Of a stretch of 64,000 nucleotides of DNA, positions 19,607-26,008 are shown one piece after another (within the stretch, counting starts at the first letter, position 1; every line of letters starts with the position of its first letter). Made by a program: the position numbers and the translations under genes. The stretch lies in the NCBI RefSeq assembly GCF_900105175.1, contig NZ_LT629771.1:5910622-5974621 (forward strand), written 5' to 3'. The notes under the pieces are model-generated. The model saw only the letters and a list, made by a program, of their open reading frames with translations. It made no database searches and was not told the DNA's origin. This DNA comes from Jiangella sp. DSM 45060. Lineage in GTDB: Bacteria; Actinomycetota; Actinomycetes; Jiangellales; Jiangellaceae.

Positions 19607-20995
19607 ATGAAGCACCACACCATACGCACCCGCACCGTCCTCACCCTCGCGGCCGCCGCTTCCGGCGCCGCTCTCGTGCTCGCCGCGGCGGGCCCGGCGA
19701 GCGCCCAGGACCAGCCGCTCACCACCGAGAACCCCCGGCCCAACTCCGCGCCGCTGACCGGCGGCGACGCGGCCTACGAATATGCGCCGACGATCATCGC
19801 CGAGAACGGCGTGTACCGCATGTGGTACTGCGCCCAGGACCCCCAGGGTTCCGTGCCCGGCGACGACATCCTGTATGCGGAGTCGCCGAACCTCGACGGC
19901 CCGTTCACCGCGCCGGGCGGCGGCGACCCGCTGATCGTCTTCGAGGGCCGCGGCGACGGCGGCTTCGACGGCCAGCACACCTGCGACCCGTCGGTCGTCA
20001 AGGTCGACGGCACCTACTACATGTACTACGGCGCGGCCGTGAACGACGGCGCCACCACCGTCGGCGTCGCCCGCAGCTCCGACGGTCTCAGCTGGGAGCG
20101 CATGACCGACCAGCCGATCATCGCGCCGGCGAACCAGCAGGACACCGGCAACGACTACGGCGCCGGCCAGCCCAGCGTGACCTACCTCGACGGGCAGTTC
20201 TACCTGATCTTCACCGACACCACCGGCGCCGGCGCGCTGCCGACCAACGGCGCCGGGCAGTTCGCGTGGCGCTCGTCCGACCCGACGTTCGCCACCGGCA
20301 CCGAGGTGTTCACCGCCGACGGCTGGCAGGCGTCGACCCCGGAGAACTCGCGCGCGTTCTCCCTGGCCAACGCGTTCTCGGCCGACTGGCAGTACTCCGA
20401 CGAGCTCGAGTCGTTCGTCATCGCCCACAACAACGACGCCGGCCGCACGACGCTGACGTTCCTCGGCACCGAGAACCTCGCCGAGCACCCGTGGGCGCCG
20501 GTGAACATCGAGGGCCCGTGGGTCGAGGGCCCGGGCGTCGTGTCGACGCCGGACAAGCACGCCGTCGACGACAACGGCGGCGAGTGCGGCCGGGTGCCGG
20601 TCGACGTCATGCACGCGAGCCGGGCCGACGGCGTCCCGCCGCAGGACCTCGTGCACAAGGGCATCGACGTCGTCGCGCCGATCGAGTGCGAGACGCCCAC
20701 GCCCACCCCGACGCCGACCGAGGACCCGACCGACGAGCCCACCGAGGACCCGACGGAGTCGCCCACCGAGGACCCCACCGGCGAGCCGACGGACGAGCCC
20801 ACGGATGAGCCGTCCGAGAGCCCGACCCCGACGCAGGAGCCGACCGAGGACCCGACGCCGTCGCCGTCGCCGACCTCTGACGACGACCTGCCCGACACCG
20901 GCGCCGGCAGCACCGGCGTGCTGGTGGCGCTGGGCGCGGCCCTGGTGGCCGGCGCGGCGCTGCTGTACCGGTACCGCCGCGGCACGGTCGCGTAG
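19607..20995 (+). CDS. LPXTG-anchored GH43-like secreted protein
   Basis: 462 residues. Signal peptide at 1-34 (TLAAAASGAALVLAAAGPASA). The body carries repeated WYCAQDPQG, MYYGAAVNDGATTVGVARSSDGLSWERM and FYLIFTDTTG strands typical of five-bladed beta-propeller glycosidases (GH43/GH32/GH62 superfamily); catalytic acids cannot be assigned. A Pro/Thr/Glu-rich stalk of PTEDPTDEP-type repeats (about 360-420) leads to the sorting signal LPDTG, a hydrophobic helix and a basic tail RYRRG. Sortase should link it to peptidoglycan. It probably binds or cuts plant or microbial polysaccharide at the cell surface. A strong hairpin terminator follows. Confidence 0.85.
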   Translation: MKHHTIRTRTVLTLAAAASGAALVLAAAGPASAQDQPLTTENPRPNSAPLTGGDAAYEYAPTIIAENGVYRMWYCAQDPQGSVPGDDILYAESPNLDGPFTAPGGGDPLIVFEGRGDGGFDGQHTCDPSVVKVDGTYYMYYGAAVNDGATTVGVARSSDGLSWERMTDQPIIAPANQQDTGNDYGAGQPSVTYLDGQFYLIFTDTTGAGALPTNGAGQFAWRSSDPTFATGTEVFTADGWQASTPENSRAFSLANAFSADWQYSDELESFVIAHNNDAGRTTLTFLGTENLAEHPWAPVNIEGPWVEGPGVVSTPDKHAVDDNGGECGRVPVDVMHASRADGVPPQDLVHKGIDVVAPIECETPTPTPTPTEDPTDEPTEDPTESPTEDPTGEPTDEPTDEPSESPTPTQEPTEDPTPSPSPTSDDDLPDTGAGSTGVLVALGAALVAGAALLYRYRRGTVA

Positions 20996-21001
20996 CACGC
21001 A

Positions 21002-21043
21002 CGACGAGGGGTGGGCGGCCGCGCGGCCGTCCACCCCTCGTCG
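21002..21043. terminator. 20-bp hairpin, bidirectional terminator
   Basis: CGACGAGGGGTGGGCGGCCG (21002-21021) pairs with 21024-21043 over 20 base pairs with one G-U wobble. It occupies the gap between two convergent genes (ends at 20995 and 21052) and lacks a U run on either side, as is common in high-GC actinobacteria. Confidence 0.85.
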
Positions 21044-21051
21044 CGTGGTGC

Positions 21052-21435
21052 TCAGATGCGGTAGGGCGCGTTGCCGCGGACGGCGTCGGTGATCTCCTCG
21101 TTCACCGGCCGGAGCTCGACCACGCCGCCGACACCGCACGGGATGCGCGCCGCGATGGCGGCCGCCTCCTCGGGCGTCTCGCAGTCGACGAGGTAGTAGC
21201 CGGCCAGGAGTTCCTTGGCCTCGAGGAACGGGCCGTCGGTGACGGCGGGCGCGCCGCCGCGAGCCCCCGCGCGCACCGTCAGCACACCGGAGCCGTCGCC
21301 GAGCGCGGCCGAGCTGAGCACCGTCCCGGCCTCGTTGAGCTCCTTGAACAGGGTGACGTGCCCCTGCAGCCGGGCCTCCGCCTCGGGGTCGGGGCCCGCG
21401 CCCGGGTTGTTGTAGATCAGCATCAGGTACTTCAC
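21052..21435 (-). CDS. YCII/DGPF-domain protein
   Basis: 127 residues of the YCII-related (PhnB-like DGPF) family: KYLMLIYNNPG at the start and the diagnostic VTDGPFLEAKELLAGYYLVDCETPEEAAAIAARIP-type block (in part) in the middle. These ferredoxin-like proteins often sit beside ECF sigma factors; function is unknown. GTG 21435 is chosen because GAGAGAG lies 8 bases upstream; an in-frame GTG at 21444 would overlap that site. It is divergent from the DHA2 exporter, and a perfect CRP-type palindrome lies in the shared gap. Confidence 0.8.
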   Translation of the reverse strand: MKYLMLIYNNPGAGPDPEAEARLQGHVTLFKELNEAGTVLSSAALGDGSGVLTVRAGARGGAPAVTDGPFLEAKELLAGYYLVDCETPEEAAAIAARIPCGVGGVVELRPVNEEITDAVRGNAPYRI

Positions 21436-21460
21436 GGGGATCACTCTCTCACGAACTCGA

Positions 21461-21476
21461 TGTGACCCAGGTCACA
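21461..21476. promoter_or_regulatory. Perfect CRP consensus palindrome
   Basis: TGTGA-CCCAGG-TCACA is an exact match to the CRP-family consensus TGTGA-N6-TCACA. It lies 25 bases upstream of the YCII gene and 80 bases upstream of the divergent exporter, so it could serve either. Confidence 0.65.
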
Positions 21477-21556
21477 AAACCTCATGTCGAAATCCGCTCC
21501 TCGACCGCGACGTACCGGATGACAGCGCGATCGAAGGACCTGAGAGAGGGATCACC

Positions 21557-23149
21557 GTGACGACCATCGACACTTCGGCTCCCGTGGAGCGAGCCGGCAA
21601 GCGCGAGTGGATCGGCCTGGCCGTGCTGGCCCTGCCCACCCTGTTGCTCGCACTCGACATGAGCGTTCTGCACCTGGCCGTGCCGCACCTGGCGGCCGAC
21701 CTGCGGCCGAGCAGCAGCCAGCTGCTGTGGATCACCGACATCTACGGCTTCATGGTGGCCGGCTTCCTCATCACCATGGGCACGCTGGGCGACCGGATCG
21801 GCCGGCGCAAGCTGCTGATGATCGGCGCCGTCGGCTTCGCCGCCGCCTCGGCGCTGGCCGCGTTCTCGACCAGCGCGGAGATGCTGATCGCGACCCGGAC
21901 GCTGCTGGGCATCGCCGGCGCGACGCTGATGCCGTCGACGCTCGGCCTGATCAGCAACATGTTCAAGGACCCGCAGCAGCGCGGCGTCGCGATCGCGGTC
22001 TGGATGAGCTGCTTCATGGGCGGCATGGCGCTCGGCCCGGCCGTCGGCGGGGTGCTGCTGGAGGCGTTCTCCTGGGGCTCGGTGTTCCTGCTCGGCGTCC
22101 CGGTGATGGTGCTGCTGCTCGCGACCGGCCCGTTCCTGCTCCCCGAGTACCGCAACCCCGACGCCGGCCGGCTCGACCTCGTCAGCGTGGGCCTGTCGCT
22201 CGGCGCCATCCTGCCGATCATCTACGGCCTCAAGGAGCTGGCGAAGGACGGCGTGAGCACGGTGGCGCTGACCGTCGCCGCTGCCGGTGTGGTCGTCGGC
22301 GCGGCGTTCGTCCGCCGGCAGTTGCGGCTGGCCGACCCGCTGCTCGACCTGCGACTGTTCCGGAACAAGCGGTTCAGCTCGGCCCTGGGCATCTTCTCCG
22401 TCGGCGGCTTCGCGATGGGCGGCATCTTCCTCTTCCTCAGCCAGTACCTGCAGCTGGTCGAGGGCCTGACGGCGCTGGAGGCCGGCCTGTGGCTGGTCAT
22501 CCCGGCCGCCGCGATGATCGGGGGCACGATGTACGGCCCGGCGCTGAGCCGCAGGGTCGGCGCCGGTTGGGTCATCGGCGGCGGGATGGCCGTCTCGGCC
22601 ACCGGGCTGCTGCTCATCACGCAGGCCGGCGCCACCGGCGGCCTCGGCATCGTCATCGTCGGCATGATCATCGCCAACGTGGGCATGGGCCCGGGTGCGG
22701 CCCTGACGACGGACATCGTGGTCGGCTCGGCCCCGCCGGAGAAGGCCGGCTCCGCCGCGTCGGTCTCCGAGACCAGCGCCGAGTTCGGCATCGCCCTCGG
22801 CATCGCGACGCTGGGCAGCCTGGGCACCGCCGTCTACCGGTCCGACCTGACCCTGCCCGCCGGCACGCCGGCCGAGCTGGCCACCGCCGCCCAGGACTCG
22901 CTGCCCGGCGCCACCGTGGCCGCCGCGGACCTGCCCGCCGACGTGGCCGGCCCGCTGCTGGAGTCGGCCCGCGAGGCGTTCATGACCGGTCTCACCACGG
23001 TCGCCGGCATCAGCGCCGCCGCCCTGTTCGTCTTCGCGGTGGTCGGCGTGACCCTGTTCCGCCGGTTCCAGCCGGCCGCCCACGCCCCCGAGCCGGAGGC
23101 GGAGTCGGCGGACGTGGCCGACGCCGAGCCGGAGCCCGTCGCGGCCTGA
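21557..23149 (+). CDS. MFS drug exporter, DHA2 family (second copy)
   Basis: 530 residues with about 14 helices. It shares long blocks with the exporter at 10.3-11.9 kb: LGLAVL-like helix 1 with LALDMSVLHLAVPHL, LLWITDIYGFMVAGFLITMGTLGDRIGRRKLLMIG (in part) and GSAASVSETSAEFGIALGIA near helix 13. Motif C reads GMALGPAVGGVL. The C-terminus is a short acidic tail (EPEAESADVADAEPEP). GTG 21557 follows GAGAGAGGGAT. Unlike the first copy it has no adjacent TetR gene; a perfect CRP-type site lies upstream. Confidence 0.92.
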   Translation: MTTIDTSAPVERAGKREWIGLAVLALPTLLLALDMSVLHLAVPHLAADLRPSSSQLLWITDIYGFMVAGFLITMGTLGDRIGRRKLLMIGAVGFAAASALAAFSTSAEMLIATRTLLGIAGATLMPSTLGLISNMFKDPQQRGVAIAVWMSCFMGGMALGPAVGGVLLEAFSWGSVFLLGVPVMVLLLATGPFLLPEYRNPDAGRLDLVSVGLSLGAILPIIYGLKELAKDGVSTVALTVAAAGVVVGAAFVRRQLRLADPLLDLRLFRNKRFSSALGIFSVGGFAMGGIFLFLSQYLQLVEGLTALEAGLWLVIPAAAMIGGTMYGPALSRRVGAGWVIGGGMAVSATGLLLITQAGATGGLGIVIVGMIIANVGMGPGAALTTDIVVGSAPPEKAGSAASVSETSAEFGIALGIATLGSLGTAVYRSDLTLPAGTPAELATAAQDSLPGATVAAADLPADVAGPLLESAREAFMTGLTTVAGISAAALFVFAVVGVTLFRRFQPAAHAPEPEAESADVADAEPEPVAA

Positions 23150-23212: not shown

Positions 23213-24124
23213 TCAGCTCCACTCCAGCTCGCGGTGCGACCAGATCCTGCCGCCGGCGGCGTTGCTCATGGCCGGACCGACGAAGCGCGTGACGACCTCT
23301 CGGGCAAGGTCGACGGTCGAGTACTCGGCACAGTAGGGCACAGACTTCGCGAGACTCGAATAGACGCGCCCCCACTCCTTCGGAACGACGAAGCGGTCGA
23401 GCGCCGCCATACGCCGACGTCGGGCTTCCGCCGAGATCGCGACCCCGAGAGCCGTTCCGTCGACGTCGTGCGTGACGGCGAGAACGACCAGGTCCACGAG
23501 ATCCTTCTCGCGGCTCGACGGACGATCACCGTAGATCGTCATAGTCGCGCAGACCTTGTCGGCGATCTGGTCGACGACGGGGTACAGCCGATACTCGTGG
23601 CTGACCAGTCGGGGCAGCCGAAGGGCGCTGGCTGGCTCCATGGTCGTCACGGGCGCAGTCAGCCCCGCGCCGATGGCGAGATCGACCCCCAGAGAGGACT
23701 TCTTCTGAGCGCCGACGTAGACGTCGAAGACGACGCGGCAGCCCTCGGTATAGGGCTGTTCCTCGCCACCGATCGAGGCGCGGTGCGCGGCGTAGACGAA
23801 CCTGAAATGATCGCCGAGATCAACCCCGGCGAGTCGGCGGAGGTCGGCGAGCGCCTGGTCGAGGGTGAGTCCGTGGCGATACAGGTCGATGTCGCGCGTG
23901 GCGCGGCCGGACGGCACCCGTGCCAGCATCCCGGTGCCACCTTTGAGCAGCCACTCCGAGCTAGCACCTTCAGAGAACACTCGACTCAGAAAGCGCCGGA
24001 AGTACTCCAGTCGGACCCGCTCGTTGACGCTCAGCGACGGATCTGCCAGTGCCGCCCTGCGGGACGCATCCTTGATCGCCGCATCGACACCTGCTGCGCT
24101 GGGGTACGGTTCACCGTCACTCAT
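23213..24124 (-). CDS. abiEii: AbiEii-type nucleotidyltransferase toxin
   Basis: 303 residues. The DUF1814/AbiEii nucleotidyltransferase core is clear: KGGTGMLARVPSGRATRDIDLY at about 61-82, with GGTG (62-65) and the paired acids D78 and D80 that bind metal; KVCATMTIYGDRPSSREKDLVDL near residue 195-215 is the second conserved block. Type IV toxins of this family add nucleotides to tRNA or otherwise block translation and give phage abortive infection. It overlaps the upstream antitoxin by 8 bases, so translation is coupled. GC content and codon bias are clearly below those of neighbours, a sign of transfer. Confidence 0.88.
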   Translation of the reverse strand: MSDGEPYPSAAGVDAAIKDASRRAALADPSLSVNERVRLEYFRRFLSRVFSEGASSEWLLKGGTGMLARVPSGRATRDIDLYRHGLTLDQALADLRRLAGVDLGDHFRFVYAAHRASIGGEEQPYTEGCRVVFDVYVGAQKKSSLGVDLAIGAGLTAPVTTMEPASALRLPRLVSHEYRLYPVVDQIADKVCATMTIYGDRPSSREKDLVDLVVLAVTHDVDGTALGVAISAEARRRRMAALDRFVVPKEWGRVYSSLAKSVPYCAEYSTVDLAREVVTRFVGPAMSNAAGGRIWSHRELEWS

Positions 24125-25169
24125 CGGTGGTGGCCTGCCGCGCGGCGCGGACAGTGGCGATCATCTCGGGGTCAAATACAACGCTCTGGCTGAAGGTCTT
24201 CGCCCAGCTTCGGCTGAGTGATAGAACGGCTTCGCTGCTGACGAGTTGCTCCGACAGCCGACGCGCCGAGTCATCGAAACCAGTGGCGTTCAGCAGCGTC
24301 GCGAGCGTGGTCCTCGAGGAAGCGTTGAACTGTTCCAGCTGCGGGGCGAGCGCACGAGCGAGCGATGCCCCGATGGAATCGCTGATGGCACGCATGGTCT
24401 GCCGCATCTCGGGCGTGCCGAGTAGCTTCTCGACGCCGTCCTCGCCGAGCGCACCGACGTACTTGGCCGCCACGCGGGCGCCCAGCGGCGACGTGGCGAT
24501 CTCCCGTGCAAGCGAGTCGAGGTCGAGACCGGCGATCTCCAGAAGACGTGCCAGCAGCGCGGCGCCGTCGCCCTTGCGCATGCCTTGCCGTGCGGCAAGT
24601 GGCGCGAGCAGAGCCTGCAGTCGGACGACATCGATCCGACGCCTCCCGGATGCATCGCGAAGGGCATCGGCAACGATGCTGAGATCGGTACGCGCCTCCA
24701 CGAGGTCGGCGATCGTCAGCTCGATCGTCGTCACCGGAAGTCCGGCAACGATCGTGACATCCCTCGCGTCGAGGCTCCGCTGTCGGTAGCGGATCTCAGT
24801 GCGTTGGGTCTGCCGCCTGTCCGGCGAACTGAACTCGTGACGATCGGCGGGCAGATCGCCGATCCCATGAAGACGCGCCGATGATGCTCCACTAATGACG
24901 ACCTCAGCTGCGGGTTCGCCGAGACGTTCCTCAGCGAACCTGCCGGGGTTGGTGCCGAGCCAGGCGGCCCGCAGGTCCTCGAACTCGTCTCCGGGAGCAC
25001 CGGCATCGCGATAGACGCCATGTGCGAGTCGGGTCAGGTGCCCAGCCTCAGCCAGCCGCGAAAGGTCCAGCCGCGTGAGCCCGAGCCTGCCGGCTTGGGC
25101 CGACGTGACCATCCCCCATTGGGAGGACGACAGCTCAGCAAGCACACGCAGGGCATCACCCGACTTCAT
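24117..25169 (-). CDS. abiEi: AbiEi-type antitoxin/autorepressor
   Basis: 350 residues. The N-terminal winged helix (SSSQWGMVTSAQAGRLGLTRLDLSRLAEAGHLTRLAHGVYR, in part, about 13-53) is the AbiEi antitoxin DNA-binding domain; the next 120 residues match the AbiEi body (VVISGASSARLHGIG, DVTIVAGLPVTTIELTIADLVEA in part). The last 150 residues form an extra Ala/Arg-rich helical region not typical of shorter AbiEi proteins. AbiEi neutralises AbiEii without binding it and represses its own promoter through inverted repeats; a long repeat overlaps this start codon. Reduced GC shows foreign origin. ATG 25169 is the first ATG after the putative -10, so the mRNA may be leaderless. Confidence 0.85.
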   Translation of the reverse strand: MKSGDALRVLAELSSSQWGMVTSAQAGRLGLTRLDLSRLAEAGHLTRLAHGVYRDAGAPGDEFEDLRAAWLGTNPGRFAEERLGEPAAEVVISGASSARLHGIGDLPADRHEFSSPDRRQTQRTEIRYRQRSLDARDVTIVAGLPVTTIELTIADLVEARTDLSIVADALRDASGRRRIDVVRLQALLAPLAARQGMRKGDGAALLARLLEIAGLDLDSLAREIATSPLGARVAAKYVGALGEDGVEKLLGTPEMRQTMRAISDSIGASLARALAPQLEQFNASSRTTLATLLNATGFDDSARRLSEQLVSSEAVLSLSRSWAKTFSQSVVFDPEMIATVRAARQATTDE

Positions 25170-25207
25170 ACTTGGATGGTATCGCTTTGATTGATACTTT
25201 CCAAGTA
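25169..25207. promoter_or_regulatory. AbiEi operator: 15-bp inverted repeat over the antitoxin start
   Basis: TACTTGGATGGTATC (25169-25183) and GATACTTTCCAAGTA (25193-25207) are inverted arms matching at 13 of 15 positions around the 9-base spacer GCTTTGATT. The left arm runs into the ATG of the antitoxin gene. On the minus strand the GATACC inside it is 8 bases before the ATG, so repressor binding would cover both promoter and start. Confidence 0.75.
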
Positions 25208-25216
25208 CGTGGGCCG

Positions 25217-26008
25217 TTACGAGCGCTGGCGCAACGCCTCGTAGAGCACGACGGCGCCGGCGGCGGCCGCGTTGAGGGAGCTGGCGCCGCCGGTCATGGG
25301 GATGCGGGCGACGACGTCGCAGGCGTCGCGCCAGGCGCGGCTCATGCCGGTGGTCTCGTTGCCGATCACGACGACGGCGGCGCCGGCCAGCGGGGCGCCC
25401 GCCAGCTCCACCGTCCCCGTCTCGTCGGTGCCGACGATCGTCGCTGCGGCGGAAGCGGCCCAGGACAGCAGCGGCGCCGGCCCGGGCAGCCGCAGCACCG
25501 GGATGGTGAACACCGACCCGGTGCTGGCCCGCACCGACTGCGGGTCCCACGGGTCCGCCGCATGCCCCGCCACCACGACGGCGTGCGCGCCCAGCGCGTC
25601 CGCCGACCGCACGAGCGACCCGACATTGCCGGGCGACGACGGCCGGTCGAACACCACGACCAGCGGCGACGCCACCGCGGGCAACCGGGCGAGGGAATCG
25701 GAGGGACGGCGGACGACGGCGAGCAGCTCGGGCGCGCCGTCGGAGCGCTCACCCAGCTCGGCCAGCAGCTCCGGCGCCACCCGGACGACCGGCGCCACAC
25801 CGGACGCCATCAACTCGGCCGCCCACGACGAGGGCCGCGGCCGGCCGTCGAACAGCAGCGACACGAACGGCACCCCGGCCGCGGCGGCCAGCGTGATCGG
25901 CCGCACGCCCTGGACCAGCAGTTCGCCGCTGGACTGCCGCTTCGACCGGTTGGTCAGCAGCGCCTGCCACTGCTGGAACGTGGCGTTGCGCCGTTCGACC
26001 ACCCTCAC
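25217..26008 (-). CDS. TrmH/SpoU-family RNA 2'-O-methyltransferase
   Basis: 263 residues. The SPOUT knot motifs are present: VVVFDRPSSPGNVGSLVRSADALGAHAVVV (in part, motif 1), VIGNETTGMSRAW (motif 2) and IPMTGGASSLNAAAAGAVVLYEALR (in part, motif 3). It transfers a methyl group from SAM to ribose in rRNA or tRNA; the target is unknown. GTG 26008 overlaps the stop of the acyl-CoA dehydrogenase by four bases. It is distinct from the RlmB paralogue 1.2 kb away. Confidence 0.88.
   Translation of the reverse strand: MRVVERRNATFQQWQALLTNRSKRQSSGELLVQGVRPITLAAAAGVPFVSLLFDGRPRPSSWAAELMASGVAPVVRVAPELLAELGERSDGAPELLAVVRRPSDSLARLPAVASPLVVVFDRPSSPGNVGSLVRSADALGAHAVVVAGHAADPWDPQSVRASTGSVFTIPVLRLPGPAPLLSWAASAAATIVGTDETGTVELAGAPLAGAAVVVIGNETTGMSRAWRDACDVVARIPMTGGASSLNAAAAGAVVLYEALRQRS

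Follow-up and report, generated by a model that had tools for sequence, protein, structure and literature searches.

A short intergenic region in the genome of Jiangella sp. DSM 45060 separates a YCII gene from a divergently transcribed MFS exporter gene and contains a perfect CRP-type palindrome. The locus raises the question of whether this palindrome is a regulatory site and, if so, which of the two genes it serves and in company with which other regulator. The analysis concerns a stretch of 64,000 nucleotides (the window; 5910622-5974621 of the genome), in which positions are counted from the first base.

Genes of the locus

The gene arrangement is as the sequence-only reading described it, with the YCII gene on the minus strand and the MFS_1 exporter on the plus strand (Table 1). 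As read from the sequence, the YCII gene likely starts at a GTG at 21435, 25 bases from the palindrome. The paralogous pump at ~10.3 kb (56% identity to the exporter) does have a divergent TetR gene of its own, as had also been claimed, whereas a Pfam scan of five genes neighbouring the exporter shows no TetR- or GntR-like one. A single gene of the five is of regulator type, an AbiEi antitoxin past the exporter, part of an AbiEii/AbiEi-like toxin-antitoxin pair that adjoins it on the minus strand (23213-25550, ORF extents). On the other side of the locus, a very strong hairpin (20990-21060; -57.7 kcal/mol, z -8.0) lies between an LPXTG/GH43-like gene and the YCII gene, and is perhaps a two-way terminator lacking a T run.

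Table 1. Features of the YCII/exporter locus, in window coordinates.
Feature	Position	Strand	Basis
YCII-related protein (PF03795), ORF extent	21052..21444	-	Pfam YCII 2.6e-17
CRP-type site TGTGACCCAGGTCACA	21461..21476	.	exact consensus; 9/10 arm columns constant across 12 Jiangella genomes
Putative -35 element TGTCGA	21485..21490	+	exact pattern match; 6/6 columns invariant in 12 genomes
Putative -10 element CGACGT, 17-base spacer	21508..21513	+	exact pattern match; 6/6 columns invariant, spacer 1/17
Predicted exporter transcription start (inferred)	21520	+	36th base from the first -35 base, as in S. meliloti
Ribosome-binding-like GAGAGAGG before the exporter	21542..21549	+	read from sequence
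MFS exporter, DHA2/QacA-LfrA-QepA-like, 530 aa	21557..23149	+	Pfam MFS_1 1.7e-46

The CRP-type palindrome and its conservation

A pattern scan of all 64 kb for TGTGA-N6-TCACA, at 0 or 1 mismatch, returns the palindrome as its single match; it carries 10/10 defined bases and lies between the two genes where the sequence-only reading had placed it. That such a site is rare by chance also stood, but the figure of 0.06 offered for it did not. That value fits 50% GC, while the window has ~73% GC, and the expectation per window is 0.03 from 100 dinucleotide shuffles (3/100 contained an exact site) or 0.006 from base composition. Genome-wide (7.49 Mb, a single contig) there are seven exact sites vs none for a reversed control pattern, with ~0.74 expected when the window's composition is used, and the 12 Jiangella genomes together hold 90 exact sites vs one control match. 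Among the genes of this genome is one for a CRP homologue whose alignment to structure 3h3u extends over 224 residues (E 4e-79); we take 3h3u to be the M. tuberculosis CRP linked to Rv3676, and the recognition stretch VGASRETVNKALADF of the DNA-reading helix is identical in the two. Putative CRP-type control of the exporter is well supported by these sequence comparisons.

Two of the other exact matches in the genome merit description. One (L082 1501-1516; G000:C1:4389876-4389891) lies ~130 bases upstream of a TetR gene that is followed by an MFS gene. The other, TGTGAATGCGTTCACA (L083 1501-1516), precedes the start of a presumably dehydrogenase-like gene on the minus strand by ~18 bases; as it lies inside a longer inverted repeat, it may form a stem instead of a CRP site. 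The same 16-mer was found again in several other Jiangella genomes.

The sequence-only reading had named lack of conservation near the orthologous genes as one outcome that would refute it, and the site is kept in 12/12 Jiangella genomes and in Haloactinopolyspora alba. The exporter and its adjoining divergent YCII ortholog are present in all 12 Jiangella genomes searched; the palindrome between them is exact in 11 and has one mismatch, at its last base, in the twelfth (G007; L002/L106). In an alignment of the 12 intergenic regions, chosen by regular expressions for both the palindrome and the promoter motif described below (0/12 dropped), the invariant columns number 9/10 in the CRP arms, 2/6 in the CRP centre, 0/8 in the gap between site and promoter, 7/25 in the YCII leader and 15/43 in the exporter leader. 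Of 216 exporter relatives found in named genomes, the closest of which belong to Jiangella species, the 80 best were examined; seven (six from Jiangella, one from Haloactinopolyspora) carry an exact site in the 350 bases upstream, and three more have a site with one mismatch. The exact site of H. alba (L005/L112), TGTGAGCCAAATCACA, has central bases that differ from those of the window site and lies 19 bases before CGTCGA-N17-CGACGT. Scans for exact or near-exact motifs in two incomplete genomes with weak exporter matches (G003, G004) returned none. At two Phytoactinopolyspora loci (L041, L043), a CRP-like TGTGA-N6-TCGCA with one mismatch is seen ~105 bases before the exporter paralogue.

A putative ECF42-type promoter before the exporter

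Eight bases downstream of the palindrome and directed at the exporter is the motif TGTCGA-N17-CGACGT (21485-21513), for which 0.03 occurrences are expected per shuffled window. Both of its hexamers (12 defined bases) are invariant in 12/12 Jiangella genomes, vs one of the 17 spacer columns. A sigma-70-type promoter was also considered and rejected, with 0 matches in 20900-21700. We read the motif as an ECF42-type promoter because of its agreement with the layout known from S. meliloti, its presence on both strands at two YCII-sigma loci, its frequency and linkage to YCII genes among the family genomes, and its matches upstream of YCII genes in this genome. The main ECF42 paper, by Liu et al. 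in 2018, is said to give the ECF42 promoter motif. The window motif fits the published layout TGTCG[A/G]-N17-CG[A/T]C (PMC8999054; PMC6180224), and the YCII neighbour of ECF42 sigma factors is described as conserved in a review (PMC8999054). TGTCGG-N17-CGTC is present in two S. meliloti promoters whose genes are raised by RpoE10, an ECF42 sigma, and in the one whose start is marked, transcription begins nine bases past CGTC; a third such motif, before the YCII gene next to the sigma gene, overlaps the YCII start site, and that gene is not raised by the sigma factor (PMC6180224).

In Saccharothrix sp. ST-888 (L068) and Kitasatospora sp. GP82 (L067), an exporter relative is paired head to head with a YCII gene, behind which comes an ECF42-like sigma gene, and the intergenic region of 209-210 bases carries TGTCGA-N17-CGACGT on both strands. 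Across 22 genomes of the family the motif has 97 matches vs four for controls, 12 of the 97 being this exporter's promoter in the 12 Jiangella genomes. A YCII gene (10 loci) or an exporter ortholog or relative (four, the window's included) lies within 260 bases downstream at 14 of 35 examined motif loci; 21/35 have neither within that distance, and at two further loci a YCII gene is found ~0.5 kb downstream. Six of the remaining loci were inspected, of which four precede proteins with like starts, one of them FAD-binding and berberine-bridge-like (Pfam). Within this genome, TGTCGA-N16/17-CG[AT]C occurs upstream of 5/17 YCII genes and is absent from the other 12. YCII-ECF42 operons preceded by the motif are those of L067 and L068, of genome G002 and, in this genome, of L200.

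The motif before the gene for an FAD-binding, berberine-bridge-like protein in this genome (L165 1501-1529; G000:C1:6914833-6914861) continues with CGACGTACCGG, as it does before the exporter, and L257 and L275 are similar. No CRP site (≤2 mismatches) was found in the 130 bases upstream of the L165 motif.

No ECF42 sigma gene adjoins the YCII/exporter pair in the window. Elsewhere in the genome there are 13 strong ECF42-like matches, one of which has an internal stop. The gene nearest to the L068 sigma (69%) is G000:C1:4348971-4350212, whose product contains Sigma70_r2, Sigma70_r4_2 and DUF6596 domains; it has no adjoining YCII gene, and matches to it of 83-100% are present in 12/12 Jiangella genomes. 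In G002, the best match to this sigma (73%) comes after a YCII gene (Pfam) under an exact TGTCGA-N17-CGACGT, which makes G000:C1:4348971-4350212 the best candidate for the cognate sigma of the exporter promoter. At the 10 Jiangella loci scanned, of 14, neither a promoter nor a CRP site was found in the 420 bases before the candidate gene.

Spacing of the two elements

The gap between the palindrome and the -35 element is 8 bases in five genomes, 19 in five (H. alba included) and 20 in three. The longer gaps exceed the short one by 11-12 bases, roughly a single turn of the helix. With the transcription start placed as in S. meliloti, the predicted CRP centres are -51.5, -62.5 and -63.5; a looser guess at the start gives -47.5 to -62.5. 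The helical spacing is suggestive of face-dependent CRP action, and it is not treated as proof because ~28% of indels of 3-20 bases would retain phase within 1.5 bases and because the exporter tree leaves the number of events unfixed, G006 (gap 19) grouping with G013 (gap 8). One point against activation is that, in E. coli, a CRP centre near -51.5 is not regarded as a classical activating position. Another is the argument of a 2025 analysis that the class I contact of E. coli is limited to its own clade (PMC12531629). In favour of it, the CRP sites of M. tuberculosis are concentrated between -60 and -40 and between +1 and +20, relative to the start (PMC4117774).

Distribution of the elements and order of events

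In another genus of the family, three genomes (G016, G017, G018) have an exporter relative with TGTCGA-N17-CGAC and no CRP site at up to two mismatches. Neither a promoter match nor a CRP site at up to one mismatch was found in G019, G020 or G021; G020 has one site with two mismatches. Across the six best exporter matches in two other genera, no CRP site was found, and three of them (L116, L117, L119) showed neither CRP site nor promoter. The exporter locus of G002 likewise yields no CRP site with two mismatches allowed; its promoter reads CGTCGA-N17-CGACGT, with a C at the first -35 base as in H. alba. The promoter pattern also occurs upstream of related exporters that yielded no CRP site, which suggests that CRP was added as a further layer to a specific regulator already in place. 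The simplest reading would place the ECF42-type promoter first, followed by gain of the CRP site in the Jiangella/Haloactinopolyspora line and its later loss in G002.

Which gene is served, and by what

The two elements, their conservation, the genes for CRP and for ECF42 sigma factors and the linkage of the motif to YCII-ECF42 operons are all observed. We consider it somewhat probable that they form a two-layer exporter promoter, used by an ECF42 sigma polymerase together with CRP, the latter most likely activating. RNA polymerase with an ECF42-group sigma factor would recognise TGTCGA-N17-CGACGT, and exporter transcription would begin near the predicted start. The CRP homologue would bind the palindrome, centred near -51.5 (-62.5/-63.5 in the species with longer gaps), and most likely activate the promoter once bound. 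CRP binding, its activating rather than repressing effect, the cognate sigma and any effect on YCII are the steps that we infer. On this model the drug-exporter-like gene is probably controlled by two regulators simultaneously. The sequence-only reading had set CRP against the dedicated TetR of the paralogous pump; CRP-type control is well supported at the sequence level, but the contrast is incomplete, the exporter having a strongly conserved ECF42-type promoter as well.

ECF42-type promoters are normally taken as requiring their sigma factor alone. A stricter version of the model, possible yet doubtful in our estimation, would make CRP co-activation obligatory, so that the exporter, as an AND gate, would combine a specific stress signal with the cAMP/nutritional state; the ECF42 promoter would have come first, with the sigma gene absent from the locus, and the Jiangella/Haloactinopolyspora line would then have acquired the CRP site, CRP staying on the same helix face.

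The palindrome might instead serve mainly the YCII gene, by covering or activating its promoter, and leave the exporter to ECF42 alone. The distance of 24-25 bases from palindrome to YCII start codon, constant in the 11 Jiangella genomes (of 12) in which it was measured, would suit such a role, as would the finding in M. tuberculosis that CRP binding near the start site went with repression (PMC4117774). However, in H. alba an exact site persists at a distance of 19 bases from the exporter promoter, a spacing shared with four Jiangella genomes, in a 13.6 kb exporter locus without a YCII match; the gene upstream of its exporter is a relative of the window's LPXTG/GH43-like gene (likeness judged by eye). 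This weakens YCII as the sole target of CRP and makes that reading improbable. The 260 bases before the window YCII gene hold no ECF42-type promoter on the YCII strand, unlike those of L067 and L068. Because H. alba retains the exact site with no YCII match at the locus, the palindrome probably serves the exporter. Whether it does so by activation is a separate matter, since upstream factors work in either direction and the sequence itself gives no direction; CRP could repress or insulate the exporter promoter. Yet the predicted centres of -51.5 to -63.5 lie upstream and not near +1, and upstream CRP binding in M. tuberculosis went with activation (PMC4117774), so we regard repression as unlikely.

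The identity of the binding protein can be questioned too, as the operator of some other dimeric regulator (TetR, GntR or other) might share the letters of the CRP half-site. The symmetry of the window site, which reaches seven bases per arm (TGTGACC/GGTCACA), would be in keeping with this. However, only the five-base arms are near-invariant across species, the centre is variable as CRP predicts and differs again in H. alba, and none of the scanned neighbours supplies a regulator of these families; we think such an operator highly unlikely. As for a functionless chance match, the few shuffled windows that contained an exact site lend it a little weight, but retention in 12 Jiangella genomes and, in H. 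alba, a second genus rules it out for practical purposes.

Relation to known systems

The targets of ECF42 sigma factors and the roles of their YCII partners are still poorly known. The locus provides a concrete, conserved candidate target other than a YCII gene, namely an exporter. It also suggests a way in which global control can be superimposed on an ECF promoter. Since the CRP site is present in some natural variants and absent from others, and two helical spacings occur, the proposal is directly testable. No description of a CRP site joined to an ECF42-type exporter promoter was recognised in the literature searched, outside of which most subscription journals lie. The CRP site and the ECF42-type promoter are known parts; the variant that combines them is new.

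The best NCBIfam matches of the window exporter are DHA2 exporters of the QepA, LfrA and QacA types, but it misses all of their curated cut-offs (462/1075 bits for QepA, 443/825 for LfrA and 262/900 for QacA/B). In protein type and palindrome, the window resembles the actinobacterial CRP regulons, such as that of M. tuberculosis CRP (Rv3676), and GlxR of Corynebacterium is of the same protein type and has the same palindrome. In M. tuberculosis, too, some CRP sites lie between divergent genes (PMC4117774). The window differs from these regulons in that its site accompanies the ECF42-type promoter of an MFS exporter. The association with YCII and the layout of the promoter are shared with the ECF42/YCII systems of S. 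venezuelae (Sven_0747), S. meliloti (RpoE10) and P. putida (ECF-10); in contrast to these, the window has a YCII/exporter pair without an adjacent sigma gene and a CRP site upstream of the exporter promoter.
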